From Ignavibacteria bacterium (GTDB lineage: Bacteria > Bacteroidota > Ignavibacteria > Kapaibacteriales > UBA4661), in the NCBI GenBank assembly GCA_014654705.1, contig JACVZY010000106.1, positions 67,043-131,042 on the forward strand: a stretch of DNA of 64,000 nucleotides. The letters are read 5' to 3'. Position 1 is the stretch's first letter, and each line of letters opens with the position of its first letter. The position numbers and the translations under genes were made by a program. The notes beneath the pieces are model-generated. The model saw only the letters and a program-made list of their open reading frames with translations. It ran no database searches and was not told the DNA's origin. Shown piece by piece: positions 3,211 through 57,780 of the stretch.

Positions 3211-6200
3211 TAGTATGTCCTCCGTTTCCGTTCTTTTTCGATAAGCACTGCAACACGGTCTCCGCGAACACTCATCTCTCCGCGCAAAGGCTTATCGCTG
3301 TGTGGCTCGAAATTGAGTGCCCGTTCTACACGTTCCAAACGGTTTGTCGTGCGGTCGAGGGCACGTTCCAAAGCTTCGGTACTGAGTGTTTGTGACTGTT
3401 GCTTCATCATAGCAGCATTACCCACAGGCGGCAATACGAGGCTTTGATTGGGCATTCCGGCAACGAAATTTTGTGCTGAAAGTGCAATCGGTTTCATCAC
3501 AGGTGCAAGCATCGTCTGAGCCTGTGCGCCAGCGCTTTGAACGCTGACGACCACATACCGCACCGTTTCCTTGATTTCCTGCTGAATCTGCGGACGGTAG
3601 TAATCAAGCGGGTTTCCGCCAGCAAACATGAATTGAAATAAGTCTTTGTGCTGGAGACTGAGTTTCTTCGGTACAATGGTTTCGTGGTCGGCAACGCGGA
3701 TAAGGTATTTGTCCGGGTCGCTTCCCATGTTTGGTAGCGTCATTGTGCGCCGTCCGCGCTGCGTACCGTCAAAATCTATCACACCGTCCTTGAAACCGAG
3801 AGCTGATTTTGCTACTGCAATAAGCCCTTGGAACGCGGCAATCGCCAAGCCGGAGGCAACAGCACCACCAATGGGACCAAGTTGCGCGAAGGACTGCCCG
3901 AAAATTTGTGCAACCAAGAGCGGCACAATAGCCTGTAACTGGTCAAGAGCCACTTTGAGCAGCGCCGTTCCTGCGTCCTCACCCTGCAGAATAAGTTGCG
4001 TAAATTGCGCTCCGGCAGTGACCACAAGCTGCTCATAGAGCTTGCTTTGCGTCTCTATCCGTGATTTTTCCAAGTTTGTACTCAGGTCACGAGCAGCATT
4101 GTACTCAGCATCTATGCGCTTTGCATCTTCCAAACGTCCTTCTTGCTCTGCTTTCAATTTTTCAGTGAGAAGCTGTTCTGCCTTTAGTCGTGCATTGTTG
4201 AGCGCTGAGTACGTTGTTCCCAAGCGGTTTGCTGTGCCGTCGAGCAATTTTTGTTGCTCGGTGAAGGTCGCTTTTACCGCTTCCACAAGCCCAAGGCGAA
4301 GGCGGTTCAGCGCTGCTGCCGGATTGAACTTTTTAAGCGATTCATTCATTTTCGCAATGCCCGCTTCGATGTTGAACGCTTTCGATAAGTCCACCGTCGC
4401 TCCAGCGCCTTGCTTTTCAATATCAATGCGTTTTTGCTTCAATGCCTCCAGCTTTTCGAGGTATTCCACGTAGGAAATCTCGCGCTTGTTGAGCGATTTC
4501 AGGAGGTCTTGCTCTTCCTTTTTCAGGTTGTTCAAGTCCTCCTGTTGTTTCTGTTCAGCTTCCCGCGCACTGGTATCGCTAAAGGCTGCCAGCAGCTTTT
4601 CGCGGATGTTGTACGACAGCGAGACAGCAACGTTAGTACGGCGCAAATACTCAGTTTCAAGTTGGAAACGCTGCTCTTGATACTGCAATTCGGCATCCAA
4701 GCGGGCGCGGCTATTGTTGCCGATGGTTGCAAGTTCTGCGTCGCGCTTGCGTTTCAAGCCAAGCAGCGACAACTGCAATTCCCGCTCGGAAGCATTTTCG
4801 ATAAGCTGAATACGCGCTTCTTCTGCCTCAAACTCGGTTTTAAGCTGCTCCTGCCGTAAAAGGTCAATGTATTTTTGCTTGATACGATTGCGCTGTGCCT
4901 CTGCCTGTGGCGTTTTGCCGACAATAGACAGCAATTCAAGTTCTTGCTGCTTTTCCAATTCCTGACGCTTGAGTTCACCGCGCTTGGTTGCCGATTCCAC
5001 GTCTTTCGCCCGCACCAAATCTGCCTGAGAGCGTACAGCGTCCAGTTCGGTCTTGAGTTCATCGCTACGCTTTTTGCGTTTAATTTCCTCAAGCAGATTT
5101 GCCCGGTCAAGCTCGTACTGCTGGTTGATAAGAAGACGTTTATTGAGAAGTTCGCGCTCAAACTCTGTCCCATTTTCGAGAATACGCTTGCGCTCGGATT
5201 CGACACGCTCTTCGGTCTTTTTACGGGCTTCACCGACCTCTGCGTCACGCTGCACACGCAATTTTGCAGCTTCCGCTTCGAGTTTATCCGCCTCGCTATC
5301 ATTGCCGTTGTCGCGCTGACGAGTAGCAGCTTCATCTTTGGCATTGATTTCCGCCGCGAAACGCTGCTGAATAGCCTTGATTTCTGCCTCCGAAGCTGTC
5401 TGAATGCCACGCAATTCTGCTGAAAGTTTTTCATTGCGTTTGCCAATTTGCTCATCCACAAGCCGCAATTCCGCAGCATTGGCATCTTCTAACGACTTTA
5501 CTTTGCGCTGGTTTTCGTCGTCAATCGCGCTCTGGCGCAGCTTGGCGATACGTTTTTCGTTCTCTTCTTTCAGCTTTGCAAGGTCGTCTTGGTCTTTTTT
5601 CTCGTCTTTTTTGGCACCGTCTTTTTTGCCAATGGCATCAAGAATTGCTTCAATTTCTTTGGCTTGCTTTGCCGTCAACGCCTTATTATTGGCTGCGTTC
5701 AGGAGACGCTGCTCAATGGCTTTTTTCTCTTCATCCACTTGCTTTTTGAGCAGAGAACTTTCATTTTTCCGAAGGTCGGTGGCAGAGATTCTCAGGCTCT
5801 CATAACCGTCCTTGATAGCAGCAACGCGGTCTTGCGTGTTTTTCGCATTTGCTGCTTGGTCAAGCGCTGCAAGCTCGTCGGCAGCCTTTTTGCGCAAAGC
5901 TGCTTCTTGTTCGGTGGCAAATTTCTTCAGTCGAATCCCTTGGTCAACTGTCAAGCCTTCAACCGACTGAATCTTTTGCAAAGCATCTATTTCCGCCAGC
6001 AAACGAGCATTGATGACGCGCTTTTGGTCATCATTGGTCACGCCTTGCTTCTTTTTCACTTCATCAAGCTGCTTGCTGTATTCTGCCGACACTTTGCCCA
6101 GACTATCCTGAACACCTTGTATTGCCTTGTCTAACGAGATTTCCGCAGCTTTTTGATTGAAGCCATTCGAGAATGCCGCACCAGCATTACCACCGATGTT

Positions 6201-19223: not shown

Positions 19224-20544
19224 ATTGGAACTCCTCTGGGTTGATTATTTCGCCATTGCGCTTCAGAACAAGCGGGATAGCTGCCGTTTCACAATAAGAA
19301 ATCATTCTGCGCACAACAGCATCGCAGAAAAGCGTTTCCTGCTCTATCGTGTAGCAATACCGAGCGTTTTGCACCGAGGCTAACAGCGTCGAGCCGCTTC
19401 CAGCGAAGAGGTCAAGGATAAGGTCGCCTGCTTCGGAGCTATTGAGCAGCGCCCTTTGCACCAAGACTACGGGCTTTTGCGTCGGGTGAATGTACGTGCT
19501 GTTATGTTCCGTCGAGATTTCCCAAACGTTGGTTTCGTTCTTGGGACCAAACCAGCGTTTTGAAACGGTCGGCATACCTTTCCCGCCCACAATGCACGGC
19601 TCGTACTGACGGTGATAGTGCGCCCACGACATCGTAAACGTCTGTTTTACCCACACGAGCGGTATAGAATCAAATGACACGCCGTTTGCGCGGAACGCTT
19701 CTGTCAAGGTCACATAGTATTTGGCTGCGTACCAGACGTAGTAGTGCGCATCAGTAATCAGGCTGTCTTTCGCATTTCGCAGCACCGCATTCAAGAATTG
19801 AGCGTAGTCGTCATCGGACATTTCATCTTTCCATGCAGTGCAATACACCTCGCTCCAGTCTTTGCCCGCTTTCTCAGAGCCGCCGCGACCTTCGTTGTTG
19901 AATTCGGTGTAAGCGATGTTGTACGGTGGGTCAGTAAAGAGCATGGCTGCTTTCTTGCCCTGCATGAGCAGCGCTACGTCTCCACCATTCGTGGAATCAC
20001 CGCACATAAGGCGGCTTGTCATACCATTGAGCGTAAACTCGTACACATCACCCGTTTTGGTGATTGCCACGCTTTTTAGCTCCGGCACGGGCGTTTCGAC
20101 AGGTTCTTGTGCAGCTTCGTCAGTTGCCATCAGCGCCGTCAGTTCATCGCTAGAGAAAAATTGCTCCATACTCACGCCTTCGGCTTCGAGAGCCTGCAAT
20201 ACTACAGGGTCGAGGTCAATACTCACCTGTGCGATGCGGTTATCAGCAAGAGCAAGTTCTTTCGCTTTGCGGTCGGTGGTAATGTCCAAATCGGTACGCA
20301 TCACCGCGACAAGCTCATTGCCCGTCGTTTTCACGACGCGGACGTTAGAAATACCACATTCCGCAGCATATTCCGCAGTGAGGTTTCCGGCGATGATAAC
20401 ACCGTTTTTGTCCAAAACGATTGACCTGCCAGCACCGTACTCACGCAACGAATTTGCCAGCATTGAGCGTCCGCGCTCAGTGTGGCGATTGGCGTTTTGT
20501 TCGTGCTGCTTCAGGTCGGCGATATTGAGCGTGTCTTTAGCCAT
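19213..20544 (-). CDS. ParB-like/DNA methyltransferase, beta class, 443 aa
   Basis: The N-terminal about 100 residues form a ParB/Srx-like domain (LKQHEQNANRH, IVLDKNGVIIAGNLTAEYA). The methyltransferase domain has DPPY at residues 205-208 and the SAM-binding LDLFAGSGST at 377-386. The motif order DPPY first, then FxGxG, marks the beta group of N6-adenine or N4-cytosine enzymes. No partner restriction gene is adjacent, so it is probably an orphan phage methylase for self-protection or packaging control. It overlaps small terminase and the preceding 133-aa gene. Confidence 0.93.
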   Translation of the reverse strand: MAKDTLNIADLKQHEQNANRHTERGRSMLANSLREYGAGRSIVLDKNGVIIAGNLTAEYAAECGISNVRVVKTTGNELVAVMRTDLDITTDRKAKELALADNRIAQVSIDLDPVVLQALEAEGVSMEQFFSSDELTALMATDEAAQEPVETPVPELKSVAITKTGDVYEFTLNGMTSRLMCGDSTNGGDVALLMQGKKAAMLFTDPPYNIAYTEFNNEGRGGSEKAGKDWSEVYCTAWKDEMSDDDYAQFLNAVLRNAKDSLITDAHYYVWYAAKYYVTLTEAFRANGVSFDSIPLVWVKQTFTMSWAHYHRQYEPCIVGGKGMPTVSKRWFGPKNETNVWEISTEHNSTYIHPTQKPVVLVQRALLNSSEAGDLILDLFAGSGSTLLASVQNARYCYTIEQETLFCDAVVRRMISYCETAAIPLVLKRNGEIINPEEFQCAE

Positions 20545-20938
20545 TGGTTTCTACTGTTTCTGTTTTCGTATCAGTTGTTGCGGATGCAGGAACGGTTCCA
20601 ACTTCCTCGCCACGGTACGGTGCAGGAACGGTTCCAACTTCCTCGCCACGATAGACTGCATCTGCAATCTGAAGCGGGAATCTTTCAAAGACGTTTTTCA
20701 CCATCTCTTTCGCAATATCTTCCTCCAAGTCATTGCATTTCACAACAGCAAGGGCAATGTCTTTATCCTTCGCAGCATCACGGAAAGCGATTTGCAACGA
20801 CTTGGATTTGACTTTTTTCGTCTTGGGAGTACCATCCGCCTTGTACAGCGGTTTGCCGTCGTCGTCTAATACTGGCTCGTCGCTGTCTTGCGTGAAGAGT
20901 GCGGTAACGGAGAATTCGAGATTTTCGAGGAATTTCAT
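20537..20938 (-). CDS. Hypothetical protein with tandem 12-aa repeat, 133 aa
   Basis: I do not recognise it. The protein is charged, with a predicted alpha/beta core (residues 1-95). It ends in two tandem copies of YRGEEVGTVPA plus a Thr-rich tail. The gene overlaps the methyltransferase start by 8 nt and follows the large fibre gene. The repeat copies may vary in number between related phages. Confidence 0.6.
   Translation of the reverse strand: MKFLENLEFSVTALFTQDSDEPVLDDDGKPLYKADGTPKTKKVKSKSLQIAFRDAAKDKDIALAVVKCNDLEEDIAKEMVKNVFERFPLQIADAVYRGEEVGTVPAPYRGEEVGTVPASATTDTKTETVETNG
20585..20656. repeat. Tandem repeat, 36-bp unit, two copies
   Basis: Units at 20,585-20,620 and 20,621-20,656 share their first 30 bases exactly. 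The period is a multiple of three, so the encoded 12-residue unit stays in frame. Confidence 0.92.
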
Positions 20939-30649: not shown

Positions 30650-31429
30650 TTATTCTTCCGGGCATCCAGTTGATGGATTCACGGGAGGAAATTCACGTAT
30701 TTGCAAGGACAGAGGAAATTCGTCTATATTCCCTCCGTGCCTGTCAGACATTTTGAGTGTTTTTGCCAGATGTGTACCCATCTGTTTTACAAACACAGAG
30801 TTTCCAACACTCTTGACAGCATCCGCGATTTGTTCCATCCACTCAACTTTGCAGGGACGATAACGATATATGCCGTTTTCGTTTCCGCTTTCGCCACCAA
30901 TGATTGCCCAGTCGATAGCAAGCAAATCCAATAGGTCAAGGTTCATACCTATTTGTTCATGCAATGGCTCAAAAGAAATGAACCGAATTTTTGCAGGTAC
31001 TCTCAACAACGGGTCCAGCCTTGACATTCCTTTGTTGCTGCCGATACTTGTTCCAAGCCAGACGTTGCCCCAGCCCCCGCCCCAATCCGAGGGCAAGTTT
31101 TCAAGTATTCGCTCGGGGCGCTTTGTCAGGATTTGAAATGTGTGCTGCGGGCATTGGCGAATTATATCCCATGCCTCACTACGGAAGCCGTCACAGTTTT
31201 CGTGGAAAAAGTCGGTCAATGAGGAGGTGAATATTTTAGATGGCTCTTTGAGTTTGAGAGGAAGATTAAATACCGTTTTAGTTTTTGTCACCACTCTTGG
31301 ATTGTATCGTGTGTCGTCGAAGCTGTCTCTGTACATATAACAGAATTTGCAGTCTTCATCAACTTTGGTGCAGCCTCTGGCAATATTCCATGTGGCATCT
31401 GTCCATTGGATGTTTGATTTTTGCGCCAT
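30650..31429 (-). CDS. Phage Gp37/Gp68 family protein (DUF5131), 259 aa
   Basis: The sequence matches the phage Gp37/Gp68 family, with its SNIQWTDATWNIARGCTKV start, a CxxxxxxCxxC cluster (Cys20, Cys27, Cys30) resembling a radical-SAM cluster site, FHENC, FQILTKRPERI, NVWLGTSIGS and DWAIIGGESG. The biochemical role of the family is not established. The gene sits in the early region after small ORFs. Its last residues, VNPSTGCPEE, are nearly the same as the end of the neighbouring 88-aa protein. Confidence 0.9.
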   Translation of the reverse strand: MAQKSNIQWTDATWNIARGCTKVDEDCKFCYMYRDSFDDTRYNPRVVTKTKTVFNLPLKLKEPSKIFTSSLTDFFHENCDGFRSEAWDIIRQCPQHTFQILTKRPERILENLPSDWGGGWGNVWLGTSIGSNKGMSRLDPLLRVPAKIRFISFEPLHEQIGMNLDLLDLLAIDWAIIGGESGNENGIYRYRPCKVEWMEQIADAVKSVGNSVFVKQMGTHLAKTLKMSDRHGGNIDEFPLSLQIREFPPVNPSTGCPEE

Positions 31430-31469: not shown

Positions 31470-31736
31470 CTATTCTTCCGGGCATCCCGTTGTCGGATTC
31501 ACAAAGTGAACCCAACCCCTGCGGTCGCAAACGCGAATCGCATTGGTTTGCAGACCAAACTTCTCGTAAAAACCGCGACAGACTACATCCTTGTTGGCTA
31601 TCGTGGCTTTATGGCAAACGAAGTATCTATCTTCCTCCAAACATTCGGCAATGATTTCTTTCATGCGTTCCTTGCTTACGATGCGATTCTTGGAGAACAG
31701 GCATTCATTGCATTTTTGCTCACAGACTTTTAGCAT
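31470..31736 (-). CDS. Cys-rich small protein with shared C-terminal tail, 88 aa
   Basis: The protein begins with MLKVCEQKCNEC, a cluster of three Cys, and has three further Cys (CHKA, VVCRGF, RVCDRR), so metal binding is plausible. The final VNPTTGCPEE repeats the end of the adjacent DUF5131 protein. It overlaps the upstream gene by 7 nt. No family is recognised. Confidence 0.65.
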   Translation of the reverse strand: MLKVCEQKCNECLFSKNRIVSKERMKEIIAECLEEDRYFVCHKATIANKDVVCRGFYEKFGLQTNAIRVCDRRGWVHFVNPTTGCPEE

Positions 31737-32860: not shown

Positions 32861-33155
32861 TTCTATGTTGCTTTCTGGAATGATTGAGAAAATTGATTGC
32901 TTCTTCAACGTTGTGGAGTATCACCTTTTGACCGCGCCACTGCTCGTGCCACTTTGCTTCAACGAGAGTGAGTTTTTGCCCTGACAATGGCTGTTTATCG
33001 TCCTTAAGTTCCGCAATGAAGTTGTAGCCCCTGTCACCGATAAGAATATCTGGACAGCCTTTCCCAACGCCGCTCAAAATCTGCACCGACGCACCGCATT
33101 TGCGCAGCGCTGCGACGATGGCGTTTTGATTGCCGTCTATGCGTTTTGCTCCCAT
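32841..33155 (-). CDS. VRR-NUC domain nuclease, 104 aa
   Basis: A compact PD-(D/E)xK-type nuclease. GKGCPDILIGDRGYNFIAEL carries the metal-binding Asp, and FIAELKD provides the ExK pair. Such stand-alone VRR-NUC proteins in phages are thought to act as structure-specific (Holliday-junction-like) nucleases. It is coupled to the helicase gene by a TAATG overlap at 33,153-33,157, in line with a role in replication or recombination. Confidence 0.88.
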   Translation of the reverse strand: MGAKRIDGNQNAIVAALRKCGASVQILSGVGKGCPDILIGDRGYNFIAELKDDKQPLSGQKLTLVEAKWHEQWRGQKVILHNVEEAINFLNHSRKQHRNGNQNP

Positions 33156-34540
33156 TAGAACGCCTCTCCGTAATCGCCCTCGTCCACCGTGTAATCTGGG
33201 TAACTTGGAAGGTTGTCGTGGAAAAGCGTCAGTTCTTTGCGATAGTTCACAATGACTTCGCCGATAGTACCGTTGCGGTGTTTCAGCACACAGAGCTTCG
33301 CCTTACCGACTGCCGGAGTGCCATCGCTGAACATAACATCACCATAGCGCTCTGGGCGGTCAATGCCTATCATCACATCTGCTTCGGCTTCGATATTACC
33401 GCTCTCCATGAAGTCCGACATAAGCGGTTTCTTGTCAGCGCGGCTGTCCACCTCGCGTTTCAGTTGCGAAAGCGCTATGACGGGAACGTCCAGCATCTTC
33501 GCCGTGTTTTTCAGCATTCGTGCTATCTCGGTGATGAAATGCCGCTCTTCAAGCCGGAAATTTGTCTTTTGGAACTTTTGCAGGTAATCACAGTAAATCG
33601 CCTTGCAGCCAAACTCGGACACGTAACGGCGCGCCTTTGCAGCAAATTCCGCAGCGTTCAGATTTGGCTTGTCGTCAATGTAGAGCTTCCTGTTTTGCAT
33701 CTCCTCGACACCCGCAACGATGCGGTCTATTTGGTTTTGGCTTGGGCGAGATTTCAAAAATTCGTAGGAATCAAGATTCAAGCCTGTAATCATTTTCAGA
33801 AACCGAGTTCCAAGCGCTTTAGCGGACATTTCGATAGAGAAAATTCCAACTGGAGCGTCGGAAAAAACCATGTTGTTTGCCATCGAAAGCATGAGTGCCG
33901 ATTTACCGACACTCGGTCGTGCGCCGACGATAATAAGGTCGGCAGGTTTGAAGCCGCCGAGCATAAAGTCTAGGTCGCTAAGTCCTGTAGGTATTCCCGT
34001 GATGTGACTGCCCGCTTCCAACATTGCGTCCACGTGTGCAAAGACCTCTGCGGCAAGCTGGCGCGGCTTGCGCAGCGTTGGCGTAACCAGTCCCGAACCC
34101 AGTTTCAGTGCGTGGTCTTGAAACTCTACCATTGTTTGCAATGGGTCGAGCGTTTCATCTAATGCCGCGTCGTAGTAGGTAGAACAAACCTTCGCCAGTT
34201 CACGGGCAATGGATTTTTCGAGGACAATCGCAACGTACTGGTCAATGTTGGCAGCGCTCGGCGTGTGGCTGTACATCGCCACCAAACGCGACGCGCCACC
34301 GACCTGTGCGATTTGTCCGTTGTTTTGAAGATTTTGTGTTACCGTGACCATGTCCAGAGGCTGTCCGGCGCGGTACATCGTGAGCATCGTATCGAAAATG
34401 ATGCGGTGTGTTTCGTGGTAAAAATGCTCGGTGGTCAGCTTCTCGGAAGCGACCATGAGCGCCGATTCGGAGAGCATACACGCGCCCAGAACGGCGGTTT
34501 CAGCATCTGTCGAAAACGGTAGCGGCTTTGATGCAATCAT
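33155..34540 (-). CDS. Replicative DNA helicase, DnaB-like, 461 aa
   Basis: This RecA-fold hexameric helicase has an N-terminal helical domain (residues 1-115) and a motor domain from about 175. Walker A is GARPSVGKS at 206-214, Walker B CKAIYCDYLQKF near residue 315, followed by LSQLKREVDSR (sensor) near 375. Length is normal for DnaB. The gene starts 4 nt before the end of the DUF4373 initiator gene, copying the initiator-helicase pairing of many phages. Confidence 0.95.
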   Translation of the reverse strand: MIASKPLPFSTDAETAVLGACMLSESALMVASEKLTTEHFYHETHRIIFDTMLTMYRAGQPLDMVTVTQNLQNNGQIAQVGGASRLVAMYSHTPSAANIDQYVAIVLEKSIARELAKVCSTYYDAALDETLDPLQTMVEFQDHALKLGSGLVTPTLRKPRQLAAEVFAHVDAMLEAGSHITGIPTGLSDLDFMLGGFKPADLIIVGARPSVGKSALMLSMANNMVFSDAPVGIFSIEMSAKALGTRFLKMITGLNLDSYEFLKSRPSQNQIDRIVAGVEEMQNRKLYIDDKPNLNAAEFAAKARRYVSEFGCKAIYCDYLQKFQKTNFRLEERHFITEIARMLKNTAKMLDVPVIALSQLKREVDSRADKKPLMSDFMESGNIEAEADVMIGIDRPERYGDVMFSDGTPAVGKAKLCVLKHRNGTIGEVIVNYRKELTLFHDNLPSYPDYTVDEGDYGEAF

Positions 34541-35466
34541 GTTGTTTGAGGAATTGGTTTGGCAATGACGGGTTTAGGTGTCCAGCCGGCAGGGGCTTGG
34601 ACAAGGTTTGCGGCTTTCGGCGCTTGCGCAGAAGCGGCTTTCGGATTACTTCGGGTGTAAATTTGTGAAGATTTCGCCCACTTTTCGACTGCGACGTACA
34701 CGCTTGTGTAGTTCTCGCAGCCCTTGTAACCGTCGCGTCCTTCGGCAGCCTCCTTCGCGGCTTGGAGACCGTAGAGCATCACGAGACGCGAGGCTTCATC
34801 AACGGTGAGTTGCCGCTTGAGGCTGCTCAGTGTCGGCAGCGCGGCGCAGAACTTTACCAGTGCGAGGGCTTCTGCTCGGTGTGGGTCGTCGTCGTTGGGT
34901 TTTTCTGGCGGCGGCGCAACCGCGCTTTCTTTTTCGGGGAGGGCTTCTGGGAGTGGGGTTTGATTCGCAGAATCCGATATAGATATATCTTTACTATACT
35001 CTACTATACTATGCGATTTTCCGTGCGGAAAACTATTGTTTGGCGGAGTTTCCTGCGGGTTTTCCGTGCGGAAAACTCCTTTTCTGGTACGTTCTCCGGC
35101 GCGAAACTCAAGTAAATCCCTCAAAAGGTGGTGTAAAAGCGGGGAAAACACGTGCGTAGTTTTACCGTTGGAAAACTCTGTTTCCTGTGAGTTTTCCATA
35201 CGGAAAACTCCGACTTTGCACCCATATTCAACCACTTCTTGGAGCGTTTCGCTGTCCGTTCCAAAGTCTGCGGAAATGAGTTCCATTTGAATTTCATTCC
35301 ATTCTATGCGCATATATTCGGCACCCGTCAAAAATTCAAGCAACATCACAGTTATTCCATAGCCTACAATGCCAAAGCGCTGCCGGAGCGCCTTCACAGC
35401 GAGTTCATTGCGAAAGTCGCGTGTGTGCTTGAAATGCTCGGCGTTAGTTTTGAGTGGTCGTGCCAT
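34537..35466 (-). CDS. DUF4373-type replication initiator-like protein, 309 aa
   Basis: I chose the MARPLKTNAEHFKH start at 35,466. The N-terminal domain (about residues 10-90) with ALRQRFGIVGYGITVMLLEF matches the DUF4373/Lin1244 winged-helix family found in phage replication modules. The middle (about 90-150) is low-complexity, encoded by palindromic repeats. The C-terminal part (about 195-260) is helical, like DnaD-type domains. It overlaps the DnaB-like helicase gene and likely marks and opens the phage origin that appears to lie within it. Confidence 0.78.
   Translation of the reverse strand: MARPLKTNAEHFKHTRDFRNELAVKALRQRFGIVGYGITVMLLEFLTGAEYMRIEWNEIQMELISADFGTDSETLQEVVEYGCKVGVFRMENSQETEFSNGKTTHVFSPLLHHLLRDLLEFRAGERTRKGVFRTENPQETPPNNSFPHGKSHSIVEYSKDISISDSANQTPLPEALPEKESAVAPPPEKPNDDDPHRAEALALVKFCAALPTLSSLKRQLTVDEASRLVMLYGLQAAKEAAEGRDGYKGCENYTSVYVAVEKWAKSSQIYTRSNPKAASAQAPKAANLVQAPAGWTPKPVIAKPIPQTT
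34976..35208. other. Candidate phage replication origin (iterons plus AT-rich stretch)
   Basis: Three 16-18 bp palindromes of the form GTTTTCCGTGCGGAAAAC lie at 35,015-35,032 (outer base varies), 35,059-35,076 and 35,191-35,208. A degenerate copy (13 of 18 bases) is at 35,159-35,176. A strongly AT-rich tract with three ACTATACT-like repeats follows at 34,976-35,012. All lie inside the initiator gene, as the lambda origin lies inside gene O. The repeats are seen; origin activity is inferred. Confidence 0.65.
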
Positions 35467-37307: not shown

Positions 37308-37312
37308 GTTTG

Positions 37313-37385
37313 CAGCGACAGAGAGACTCGAACTCTCATTCCTCAGCCGTAAATGGGGAGGTTCTACCGATTGAACTATATCGCT
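37313..37385 (-). tRNA. tRNA-like gene, apparent anticodon UUA (ochre), weak anticodon stem
   Basis: This 73-nt gene has a full cloverleaf frame: 7-bp acceptor (AGCGATA/TGTCGCT with one G-U), GTTC/GAAC D-stem, GAGAG/CTCTC T-stem and a TTCGAGT T-loop. The loop positions 32-38 read ATTTACG, so the anticodon is UUA, which pairs with the stop codon UAA. The anticodon stem TCCCC/GCTGA has two mismatches and base 37 is C, both unusual. It may be a decayed tRNA or an aberrant suppressor-like gene. Confidence 0.55.
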
Positions 37386-37570: not shown

Positions 37571-37758
37571 AGTCAAATAAACGCCCGTCTTTCCGGGCTG
37601 TCAGGCTTTGTACATAGCCAGTTGTTTGTAGTGGTAGAGCTATTCTCGCGGACGCACATTTGGGCTTCAAAGAGAGGTGTACATAGCTCTCAGTTTGATA
37701 GATTCTTGCGTCTAAACCTATCTCCATACCCACGCTCCAACGAATGCCCTTCGGGATG
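37571..37758. other. Spacer within the tRNA cluster, no clear gene
   Basis: It contains two copies of TGTACATAGC (at 37,610-37,619 and 37,679-37,688), each next to a short hairpin, which hints at further decayed tRNA arms. An 81-codon minus-strand frame (37,488-37,733) crosses it but overlaps the tRNA-like sequence, so I did not call it. Confidence 0.4.
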
Positions 37759-37831
37759 TAGCGGGTGGAGGAGTTGAACCTCCTATCTTCGGCTTATGAG
37801 ACCGACGAGATGACCGTTTCTCTAACCCGCT
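37759..37831 (-). tRNA. tRNA-Met (CAT), elongator type
   Basis: A complete 73-nt cloverleaf: acceptor AGCGGGT/ACCCGCT, discriminator A, D-stem GAGA/TCTC, anticodon stem TCGGT/GCCGA with loop CTCATAA, T-stem GGAGG/CCTCC with loop TTCAACT. First base pair A-T is not the initiator type, so it is elongator-like; a lysidine-modified Ile-CAT tRNA is possible. CCA is not encoded. It is the first gene of the phage tRNA cluster on the minus strand. Confidence 0.9.
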
Positions 37832-39201: not shown

Positions 39202-39230
39202 AATATAAGTAGAATTATTCTTCATGTCAA
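39202..39230 (-). promoter_or_regulatory. Leftward early promoter
   Basis: On the minus strand TTGACA (39,225-39,230) and TATATT (39,202-39,207) are separated by exactly 17 bp. The -10 also reads TATATTTG, the Bacteroidota-type -7 box. Operator O1 fills the spacer and O2 touches the -35, so repressor binding would block it. Confidence 0.85.
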
Positions 39231-39261
39231 GAATAATTCTACAATATTGAAGAATTATTCT
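39211..39261. promoter_or_regulatory. Three repressor operators (O1-O3)
   Basis: The 11-bp palindrome AGAATWATTCT occurs at 39,211-39,221, 39,230-39,240 and 39,251-39,261. Centres are 19 and 21 bp apart, about two helical turns, so dimers could bind side by side. O3 ends 3 bp before the repressor ATG, which suggests autorepression. Confidence 0.85.
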
Positions 39262-39264
39262 ACA

Positions 39265-39690
39265 ATGGCTAAAAAAATAATTAATCTTGAAATCGGAGCA
39301 AGACTTCGAGAAGCTAGAGAGAAACTAGGCTTTCAGCAATCTCAAATTGCTGAGAAGGCTGGTGTGAAAAGTTATGTCATTCGAGATTATGAACTAGGTG
39401 CGTCAGGGATTTCATCAGAGGTCTTGCAGGTGTTACTCAATGAGTTTGGCATTAATTTGAATTGGCTTCTTTCGGGTGAAGGTGAGATGTATGCGAAGAA
39501 TGAGACAGGAACGAAGCTCAAAAAGGCACGTCAGGGTATAGGAAAAGAACATGAACCAGAGTTAGTGGGTAATCTCTCGGATATGCCGGAGTTTAATCAA
39601 CGAGTTATTGATGTAGCAGATTTGGAAACACTTGAGTCTCTTATCACAAAAATCAAAGGACAAACCAATGCAAACCCAAAAGGAACGTAG
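39265..39690 (+). CDS. Phage repressor, HTH (XRE/cI-like) protein, 141 aa
   Basis: Residues about 9-65 are a lambda-repressor-type helix-turn-helix (ARLREAREKLGFQQSQIAEK, GVKSYVIRDYELGASG), followed by a helix and a Gly/Lys linker. No S24 peptidase domain follows in this frame. Instead a separate peptidase ORF overlaps the end by 23 nt in the +1 frame. I chose the ATG at 39,265; the TTG at 39,247 would include operator sequence. It should bind O1-O3 and silence the leftward early promoter. Confidence 0.88.
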   Translation: MAKKIINLEIGARLREAREKLGFQQSQIAEKAGVKSYVIRDYELGASGISSEVLQVLLNEFGINLNWLLSGEGEMYAKNETGTKLKKARQGIGKEHEPELVGNLSDMPEFNQRVIDVADLETLESLITKIKGQTNANPKGT

Positions 39691-56063: not shown

Positions 56064-57780
56064 TCGAGAGACGCTCCTTTGCAGAATGACGATTTGGTTC
56101 TTTGCGGAGTGCTTCGCGCCATGCTTGGACGGCTTTTTCCTTCTCACCAAGTTTGTGATAGGCATCGCCCAAATGCTCGTAAATTGTCGCGCTCACTTCG
56201 CCATTATCAATTGCTTGTAGAATATAAACTACTGCTTGTTTGTAATTGCCGCGTTGGTAGAGTATCCAGCCCATCGTGTCCAGATATGACGGGTTCTTGG
56301 GTTCAGCCTTGAGCGCAGTCTCTATCATGGATTGAGCGCGGTCAAGCTGCAAATTGCGCTCGGAAAGCGAGTACGCATAGTTGTTGTTCGCCAAGGCGTT
56401 ATTGGGGTCAATCTGCAACGCACGCTCGTAGGCGGCATCGGAAGCACGGAGGTTTCCGGTGGAATTCTGCAAAATAGCCAGTTGGTTCCACGCATCGAGG
56501 TTATTGGTGTCAATTTTTACCGCCTGCTGTAAAACGGTAATAGCCCGTGCGACACTATCGCTTTGAGAAAGCCCTAAGCCCCACAGAAAATACAACTGCC
56601 CGTTGTTTGGGAAGCGCTTTACCGCTTGCTCCGCCACGCGCACCATATCGCCGACGCGCTGCTTCTGGAAATAAAATGCACAAATCTGCAATGGCACCTC
56701 AGGAATAGAATCCGACAGCGTGAGCGCATGGTCAAAATACGCATTGCTGCGCACAGTGCGCTCCAAGTGCCCAGCCAGTAAGCCGCACATAATCTGCACT
56801 TGCCACGATGTTGCGTATGCCGCTTTGTTCTTGAGTTCGAGGCGTTCCAAAAACTTATCGGCGCACGTGCGCGCAATGAGCGATTGGTCGAAACTCGTCA
56901 GCAAGCCATTGGCATACCGCACAGCAAGCGTAATAGCGTCGTTGTCGGTAATAACTAACTCCGACGATTTGAAAAGTTCTAATCCCTGTTCGTATTTCTT
57001 CTGGAACATATACGCATCCATAAGCGTAAAGAGCACTGCTTGGTTCCCGGGCGAACTTTGTTGCAGTTTTTCCAGATATTCAAGCGATTTTGCACTATTG
57101 CCCTTCTGCGAATATAAATCCGCCAAGCGTGCCAGAATCATAGCATCGCTATCGTCGGACTCTTGCAAGAGTTGATTGTACAGGTCTATTGCCTTATCCA
57201 CATCCCGCAATTCATAGAGACGTGCCAGCATAAAACGGTTCATCGTCTCCGGCGTGCGCGAATCAAGGTATTGATAGACCGTAATTGCCTCATCCACGCG
57301 GAACTGCTGCACATAGAGTTCGCCAAGCAACTTATAGGCAAGCGTAAAACTGGAATCTTGCGTAATGGCGGTGCGGAGTTCTTCCAGTGCGAGATCTTGC
57401 TTATTCAGTTTCACATAGTTTTGTGCAATGGCAAAGTGAACAGCCGGAACATTATCATACCGAAGCGCCTGCTGAAACTCCAGAATTGCTTCCGCCGGAC
57501 GCTCCTGCATTTGGAGCGTTGCACCCTTGATGTAGTAATCACGGGCTTTTCCGGGCTGATACTGCAAAGAATCCGCAAGAACTGGCGGCAAAGACACCAC
57601 CGAGGCAGAGATAATACGGGCAGGCTGTTTTGCTGTGCTTTGCTGCACAGTGCTTTGCTGGTCTCGGCTGCGCTGCGACGTTTCTATTCCTCCCGAAGCA
57701 CATGAACTTAGACTAAGAAACACACAAGCCAGCAGTACCGACAACAGCGATGCAGCAACGCTTGAAAACGCACGGCGCAT
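56044..57780 (-). CDS. TPR-repeat lipoprotein, 578 aa
   Basis: I chose the MRRAFSS start. The signal peptide ends in a lipobox (LSSCASGG). About twelve tetratricopeptide repeats cover residues 80-560, for example AILEFQQALRYDNVPAVHFA and YAYSLSERNLQLDRAQSMIE. TPR lipoproteins scaffold outer-membrane assembly or secretion machinery. It overlaps the DUF4292-like gene, implying a shared role. The specific partner is unknown. Confidence 0.85.
   Translation of the reverse strand: MRRAFSSVAASLLSVLLACVFLSLSSCASGGIETSQRSRDQQSTVQQSTAKQPARIISASVVSLPPVLADSLQYQPGKARDYYIKGATLQMQERPAEAILEFQQALRYDNVPAVHFAIAQNYVKLNKQDLALEELRTAITQDSSFTLAYKLLGELYVQQFRVDEAITVYQYLDSRTPETMNRFMLARLYELRDVDKAIDLYNQLLQESDDSDAMILARLADLYSQKGNSAKSLEYLEKLQQSSPGNQAVLFTLMDAYMFQKKYEQGLELFKSSELVITDNDAITLAVRYANGLLTSFDQSLIARTCADKFLERLELKNKAAYATSWQVQIMCGLLAGHLERTVRSNAYFDHALTLSDSIPEVPLQICAFYFQKQRVGDMVRVAEQAVKRFPNNGQLYFLWGLGLSQSDSVARAITVLQQAVKIDTNNLDAWNQLAILQNSTGNLRASDAAYERALQIDPNNALANNNYAYSLSERNLQLDRAQSMIETALKAEPKNPSYLDTMGWILYQRGNYKQAVVYILQAIDNGEVSATIYEHLGDAYHKLGEKEKAVQAWREALRKEPNRHSAKERLSNGTATK

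Follow-up and report, generated by a model that had tools for sequence, protein, structure and literature searches.

A probable phage replication origin inside a Lin1244_N initiator gene, with palindromic iterons and a phased 5-nucleotide tract

Results

The initiator gene and its internal repeats

We analyzed a stretch of 64,000 nucleotides (nt) from an Ignavibacteria bacterium (assembly GCA_014654705.1, contig JACVZY010000106.1, positions 67,043 to 131,042), hereafter the window, which contains a prophage whose replication initiator gene carries internal palindromic repeats (iterons) and an adjacent low-GC tract. The prophage around the initiator carries portal, terminase, head, tape-measure, endolysin, and repressor genes. 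The initiator gene lies directly upstream of the prophage dnaB, which overlaps the initiator stop by 4 nt. An earlier note, made from the sequence alone, had described iterons and an AT-rich tract in a DUF4373 gene just before dnaB; their presence is confirmed, with the gene oriented on the minus strand (35466-34537). The features are listed below, with iteron sequences given for the coding strand and positions in window coordinates.

34537-35466, minus strand (35466-34537): initiator gene, 309 amino acids; Pfam Lin1244_N, E=3.9e-12; PHROGs phrog_2562, E=9.8e-15; AF2 model
33155-34540, minus strand: phage replicative helicase DnaB gene; Pfam DnaB_C, E=2e-71; DnaB N, E=1.6e-29
35190-35209, minus strand: iteron 1, AGTTTTCCGTATGGAAAACT; frame 2, VFRMEN; encodes the first wing strand of the winged helix
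35158-35177, minus strand: iteron 2 (degenerate), AGTTTTCCAACGGTAAAACT; frame 1, EFSNGKT; encodes the wing loop
35058-35077, minus strand: iteron 3, AGTTTTCCGCACGGAAAACC; frame 2, VFRTEN; in the linker
35015-35034, minus strand: iteron 4, AGTTTTCCGCACGGAAAATC; frame 0, SFPHGKS; in the linker, adjoining the low-GC tract
34977-35014, minus strand: low-GC tract built of phased 5-nt units, reading GCATAGTATAGTAGAGTATAGTAAAGATATATCTATAT on the coding strand; predicted element for unwinding / helicase loading

The initiator contains a Lin1244_N winged-helix domain at residues 12 to 91, scoring 47.2 bits against a Pfam cut-off of 25; we take this family (PF14297) to be the former DUF4373. The AF2 model predicts a disordered linker (residues 130 to 194) and a C-terminal helical domain (residues 195 to 266), with a match to the "replisome organizer" phrog_13246 at 219 to 292. 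A fold search with the full model matched winged-helix folds of a generic kind only, and no match reached E<=0.001. The Lin1244_N family profile matches solved DnaD structures (2zc2, 1.4e-5; 8ojj, 3.5e-5), and PF07261 (DnaD / DnaB_2) is present in 16 of 46 family members. Relatives that carry names belong to Candidatus Kapaibacterium and Ignavibacteria bins.

Four palindromes of about 20 bp, of the type AGTTTTCC-N4-GGAAAACT and one of them degenerate, occupy 35015-35209 inside the gene. These are the three clear copies and one degenerate copy reported earlier, the first site now extending to 35209. With up to three mismatches allowed, the pattern gives 15 strand-hits in the 64 kb compared with 3.0 expected, a number reached by 0 of 100 shuffles; eight of the 15 are the four iterons read on both strands, inside 195 bp. 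Genome-wide, both perfect-match sites (2/2) and three of the four sites with at most one mismatch are in the initiator gene. At a threshold of at least 15 matches in 18, the gene has 4 sites, whereas synonymous-codon shuffling predicts 0.58 (maximum of 3 in 1000). A dispersed genomic palindrome or mobile repeat is ruled out, as nearly all good copies lie inside this gene.

In the structure model, iterons 1 and 2 encode the wing of the winged helix, and iterons 3 and 4 and the tract encode the disordered linker. Because the iterons occupy all three reading frames, selection acts on the DNA, with the peptide repeat as a by-product. The earlier proposal that the iterons explain the VFR.EN peptides is therefore correct for the two sites read in frame 2 and incorrect for the other two, which are read in other frames.

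The tract adjoins iteron 4 and has a GC content of 27.5% in a prophage of ~50% GC, in agreement with the AT-rich repeat tract described earlier, whose motif ACTATACT is that of the lower strand (TACTATACTCTACTATACT). The upper strand reads TATAG TAGAG TATAG TAAAG, a 5-nt array in which AG recurs every 5 nt on the coding strand and CT every 5 nt on the opposite strand. The tract falls within the most A+T-rich 40-nt windows of the gene and the top 0.7% of the prophage. Its lag-5 autocorrelation exceeds that of shuffles in which the encoded protein and its codon usage are preserved (p<=0.012 over four window sizes). No phased-AG array on the minus strand of the window scores better, and one site, at 57.7 kb, scores equally well.

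Exact matches to host DnaA boxes are absent from the prophage and number one in the 64 kb, at 57194. GC skew was uninformative. The prophage has further repeat clusters at 11.2, 18.9, and 20.35 kb, all of them simple duplications or tandem repeats that lack the origin layout. A direct duplication of GTGCAGGAACGGTTCCAACTTCCTCGCCACGGTACG type lies at 20580-20650, in the gene at 20537-20938.

Iterons and tract are conserved as DNA

The initiator gene of a close homologue (locus L006, 95% protein identity) shows 45 changes in the 821 nt outside the iteron cores and tract and none in the 109 nt within them (iteron cores, 72 nt; tract, 37 nt; Fisher P=0.007). The same holds at third positions, where 0 of 36 are changed in the iteron cores and tract versus 29 of 274 outside (P=0.034). 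Two more homologues, L008 and L009 (52-59% identity), retain iterons at the first two positions, and L009 has a well-matched iteron at a new place where the window has none. The relatives that keep the gene keep the iterons, and all but L008 keep the tract. The loss of iterons from close relatives that retain the gene, which the earlier note named as evidence against an origin, is therefore not observed.

The host genome (G000) encodes three more Lin1244_N initiators, on contigs C28 (L014 and L017) and C99 (L036). Both genes on C28 have repeats of GTAACG/CGTTAC type and, after them, a clear 5-nt tract (AGTAGAG), which suggests that several prophages reside in this genome and differ in iteron specificity. 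A search with a Kapabacteria paralogue as the query found zero viral relatives.

A 5-nt period recurs across viral initiator genes

The initiator was found in 155 of 160 Lin1244_N loci from viral contigs, and 96 non-redundant genes were kept. Each was compared with its synonymous-codon shuffles at lags 2 to 15 with a threshold of p<0.01. Lags 5 and 10 are significant in 58 genes each and lag 15 in 28, whereas control genes from the same loci are never significant at lags 5 and 10 (0/91). Lag 11 is significant in 17 of the 96 genes, probably reflecting iteron spacing in a subgroup, and all remaining non-harmonic lags are significant in 0 to 3 genes. Of 132 genes, 122 carry the phased AG on the coding strand and 8 are ties. 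The units vary by group (TAAAG, GAAAG, TAGAG, G[AT]TAG), with AG every 5 nt common to all, and the AG core and its strand are constant in genes of 25-54% GC and in L181, from a contig of 61% GC.

Directly before the tract lie phage-specific repeats, such as GGGTTAATTCTCCGA, ACATTAAC, GTTTCCG...CGGAAAC, and CCTAGTTTCCTCTGAAGAAA. Counted with k=8 within 120 nt of the tract (k=7 being too noisy in low-GC genes), repeat coverage is 24.3 nt upstream compared with 11.2 expected and 8.9 nt downstream compared with 7.1 (Wilcoxon p=2.9e-6). In the GC-rich phage L181, a shortened initiator frame stops at 3555, and the region 3555-3733 holds a repeat remnant and tract (CCTAAAGTAAAGAAAAGAAAAGGAAAGAAAAGGAAAG) past this stop and before the next recognizable frame. 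The periodicity of this tract exceeds that of all 2000 shuffles. We take the gap to be non-coding, although an overlapping frame could conceivably run through it.

The same arrangement appears with other initiator families. The tract in the rep gene of Lactococcus phage Tuc2009, annotated in its record as "contains origin of replication," gives p=0.000 at both lag 5 and lag 10. Repeats followed by a 5-nt tract are found in 28 of 35 non-redundant Tuc2009-type genes and also in phage r1t.

Other features of the prophage

Inverted AGAATTATTCT / AGAATAATTCT repeats at 39205-39265, just upstream of the repressor gene, are probable repressor operators. A predicted tRNA with a four-base anticodon (tacg) lies inside the prophage at 37312-37385, and its neighbor is a tRNA-Met at 37758-37831. 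The 3' ends of two neighboring phage genes, at 30654-30682 and 31475-31503, are near-identical (TTCTTCCGGGCATCC.GTTG..GGATTCAC), and both encoded proteins end in a VNP[ST]TGCPEE tail.

Discussion

Both the iterons and the tract are present and conserved at the DNA level, in an arrangement that recurs among phage initiator genes. Very probably, this segment is the theta-type replication origin of the prophage, lying inside its initiator gene. It has the sequence features expected of phage origins in initiator genes in general, namely in-gene iterons, an adjacent low-GC region, and adjacent initiator and helicase genes, and it has both the domain and the coding-strand AG period of 5 of the group that combines a Lin1244_N initiator with iterons and a 5-nt tract. 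The origin function proposed in the earlier note thus gains support at the sequence level, as the architecture is common with that of the experimentally supported Tuc2009 origin.

In the mechanism that we propose, the dimeric winged-helix domain would bind the palindromic iterons and build a nucleoprotein complex, and this complex would open the low-GC 5-nt array beside it. One of the strands exposed in this way would then be gripped in phase, one unit per 5 nt, most likely by the DnaD-like C-terminal part of the initiator, so that the phage DnaB from the neighboring gene would be loaded in a set orientation. The iterons would provide phage specificity, and the tract would act as a shared landing strip. 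That the C-terminal part would read the tract once opened, and thereby orient the loading of DnaB, is a plausible inference, since the family profile matches DnaD, 16 of 46 family members carry PF07261, and DnaD recognizes the motif TnnT. One stretch of DNA, read in three frames, encodes the DNA-binding wing of the protein and presumably its own binding sites.

The origin assignment could hold while the tract is merely an easily melted low-GC DNA unwinding element with no sequence-specific reader, its 5-nt beat being incidental to flexibility or to half-helical-turn phasing. The extreme A+T richness of the tract within the gene and prophage favors this account, as does the closeness of 5 bp to half a helical turn, whereas the constant AG core and strand across the sampled GC range, including the GC-rich L181, suggest a reader. 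We regard it as possible but the less probable account; a purely physical melting role is a serious alternative as the mechanism, and its probability overlaps with that of the origin reading because it competes over mechanism alone and not over the origin assignment.

Much less probable is that the palindromes are operators for a phage repressor or for autoregulation by the initiator rather than part of an origin. Their size fits a dimeric winged-helix protein, and the modeled domain resembles MarR/ArsR-type folds. However, they sit mid-gene, 257-452 nt past the start codon, the likely repressor operators differ in sequence (AGAATTATTCT type, about 39205-39265), and in family members the repeats border a conserved tract. 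A protein-level origin of the iterons and tract, through linker peptide repeats or short tandem DNA slippage with no function in the DNA, is very improbable: although iterons 3 and 4 and the tract lie in the predicted disordered linker and SKVKE-type low-complexity peptides are frequent in phage initiators, it is largely refuted by iterons in three frames (iterons 1 and 2 encoding the structured wing), a period of 5 above protein-preserving nulls, and an L181 tract kept outside the reading frame, and slippage would not be expected to leave the phase and strand of the AG the same from family to family.

Beyond the window, the 5-nt AG array following phage-specific iterons may be a widespread origin element of at least three phage initiator families. 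It would serve DnaD-like initiators or the helicase as a single-stranded landing site recognized by its sequence, and would be a phage counterpart of the DnaA-trios and DnaD Recognition Element (DRE) of bacterial chromosomes. We give this broader proposal about an even chance. Several observations weigh against our main reading of the segment and its tract. The tracts of the homologue L008 and the paralogue L036 are not significantly 5-periodic, and the C terminus of the window initiator has no DnaB_2/DnaD (PF07261) match by Pfam or hhalign. Lambda O gives only a hint of period 5 (p=0.09; lambda-family viral loci are nearly identical and so provide no independent test of the tract), the in-gene origin of phage TP901-1 has no period-5 tract, and the initiator gene of Listeria phage A118 shows a period of 8 in place of 5. 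Because these last three are not significant at lag 5, the tract marks a large class of in-gene origins rather than all of them. Many Tuc2009-type tracts also lack strict TnnT, so the link to DnaD is drawn by analogy.

Origins inside initiator genes are already known (lambda, Tuc2009, and TP901-1). The open literature that we searched, a scope with subscription papers outside it, holds no published description of the pentamer tract, and as far as that literature shows, neither the Lin1244_N example nor the shared 5-nt tract has been described. A handful of phages have known in-gene origins. As a sequence signature, the tract can locate such origins and give their orientation in uncultured phages and in prophages, in both Bacteroidota and Firmicutes. 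If the array is indeed a widespread element, origins could be predicted from sequence for large numbers of uncultured phages. The question that it raises is what reads the 5-nt beat.

Comparison with known systems

The likeness to lambda ori suggested in the earlier note holds for the layout and not for family membership. Lambda ori also has palindromic iterons (four, of ~18 bp) followed by a low-GC stretch, in-gene and with helicase functions adjacent. However, lambda O belongs to Phage_rep_O (PF04492; lambda O control, 5.7e-36), whereas the window initiator matches only Lin1244_N, and the 5-nt array is not significant in lambda. Lambda uses the host DnaB through P; unlike lambda, the window phage has its own DnaB adjacent, and no P-type loader was recognized among the scanned neighbors.

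The initiators of Tuc2009 and TP901-1 bind repeat-rich regions in their own genes, which serve as ori (PMC8965321). Like the window gene, Tuc2009 rep2009 has an in-gene origin with iterons followed by a phased tract (GATAG GATAG GAGAG GTTAG...); it differs in its C-terminal family, Rep_Org_C (PF06926), and in its unrelated iterons of CAACCAA type. ORF11 of Lactococcus phage r1t similarly has a mid-gene period-5 tract (ATAAG AATAG ATTAG; p=0.000) but a different C-terminal family, Phg_2220_C. TP901-1 rep and A118 gp49 (PF07261) share with the window an initiator gene with internal repeats. In A118 gp49 (L211:8609-9541), an 8-nt AATTAAAG repeat follows ACAACGAAAGGG repeats, perhaps as an alternative phasing of a similar element.

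At the B. subtilis chromosomal origin, DnaD binds single-stranded DNA with repeated TnnT on one origin strand (PMC10201434). The DnaA-trios and DRE of this oriC resemble the tract as short phased motifs beside double-stranded DNA boxes that are read as single strands. They differ in being chromosomal and non-coding and in the DnaA-trio unit of 3 nt versus 5 nt, and the TnnT of the DRE is not kept in all phage tracts. A further likeness is that the initiator family is related to DnaD, which recognizes TnnT (PMC10201434). If the reader of the tract is indeed a DnaD-like initiator, phages and Gram-positive chromosomes would have in common a principle of strand selection for helicase loading.
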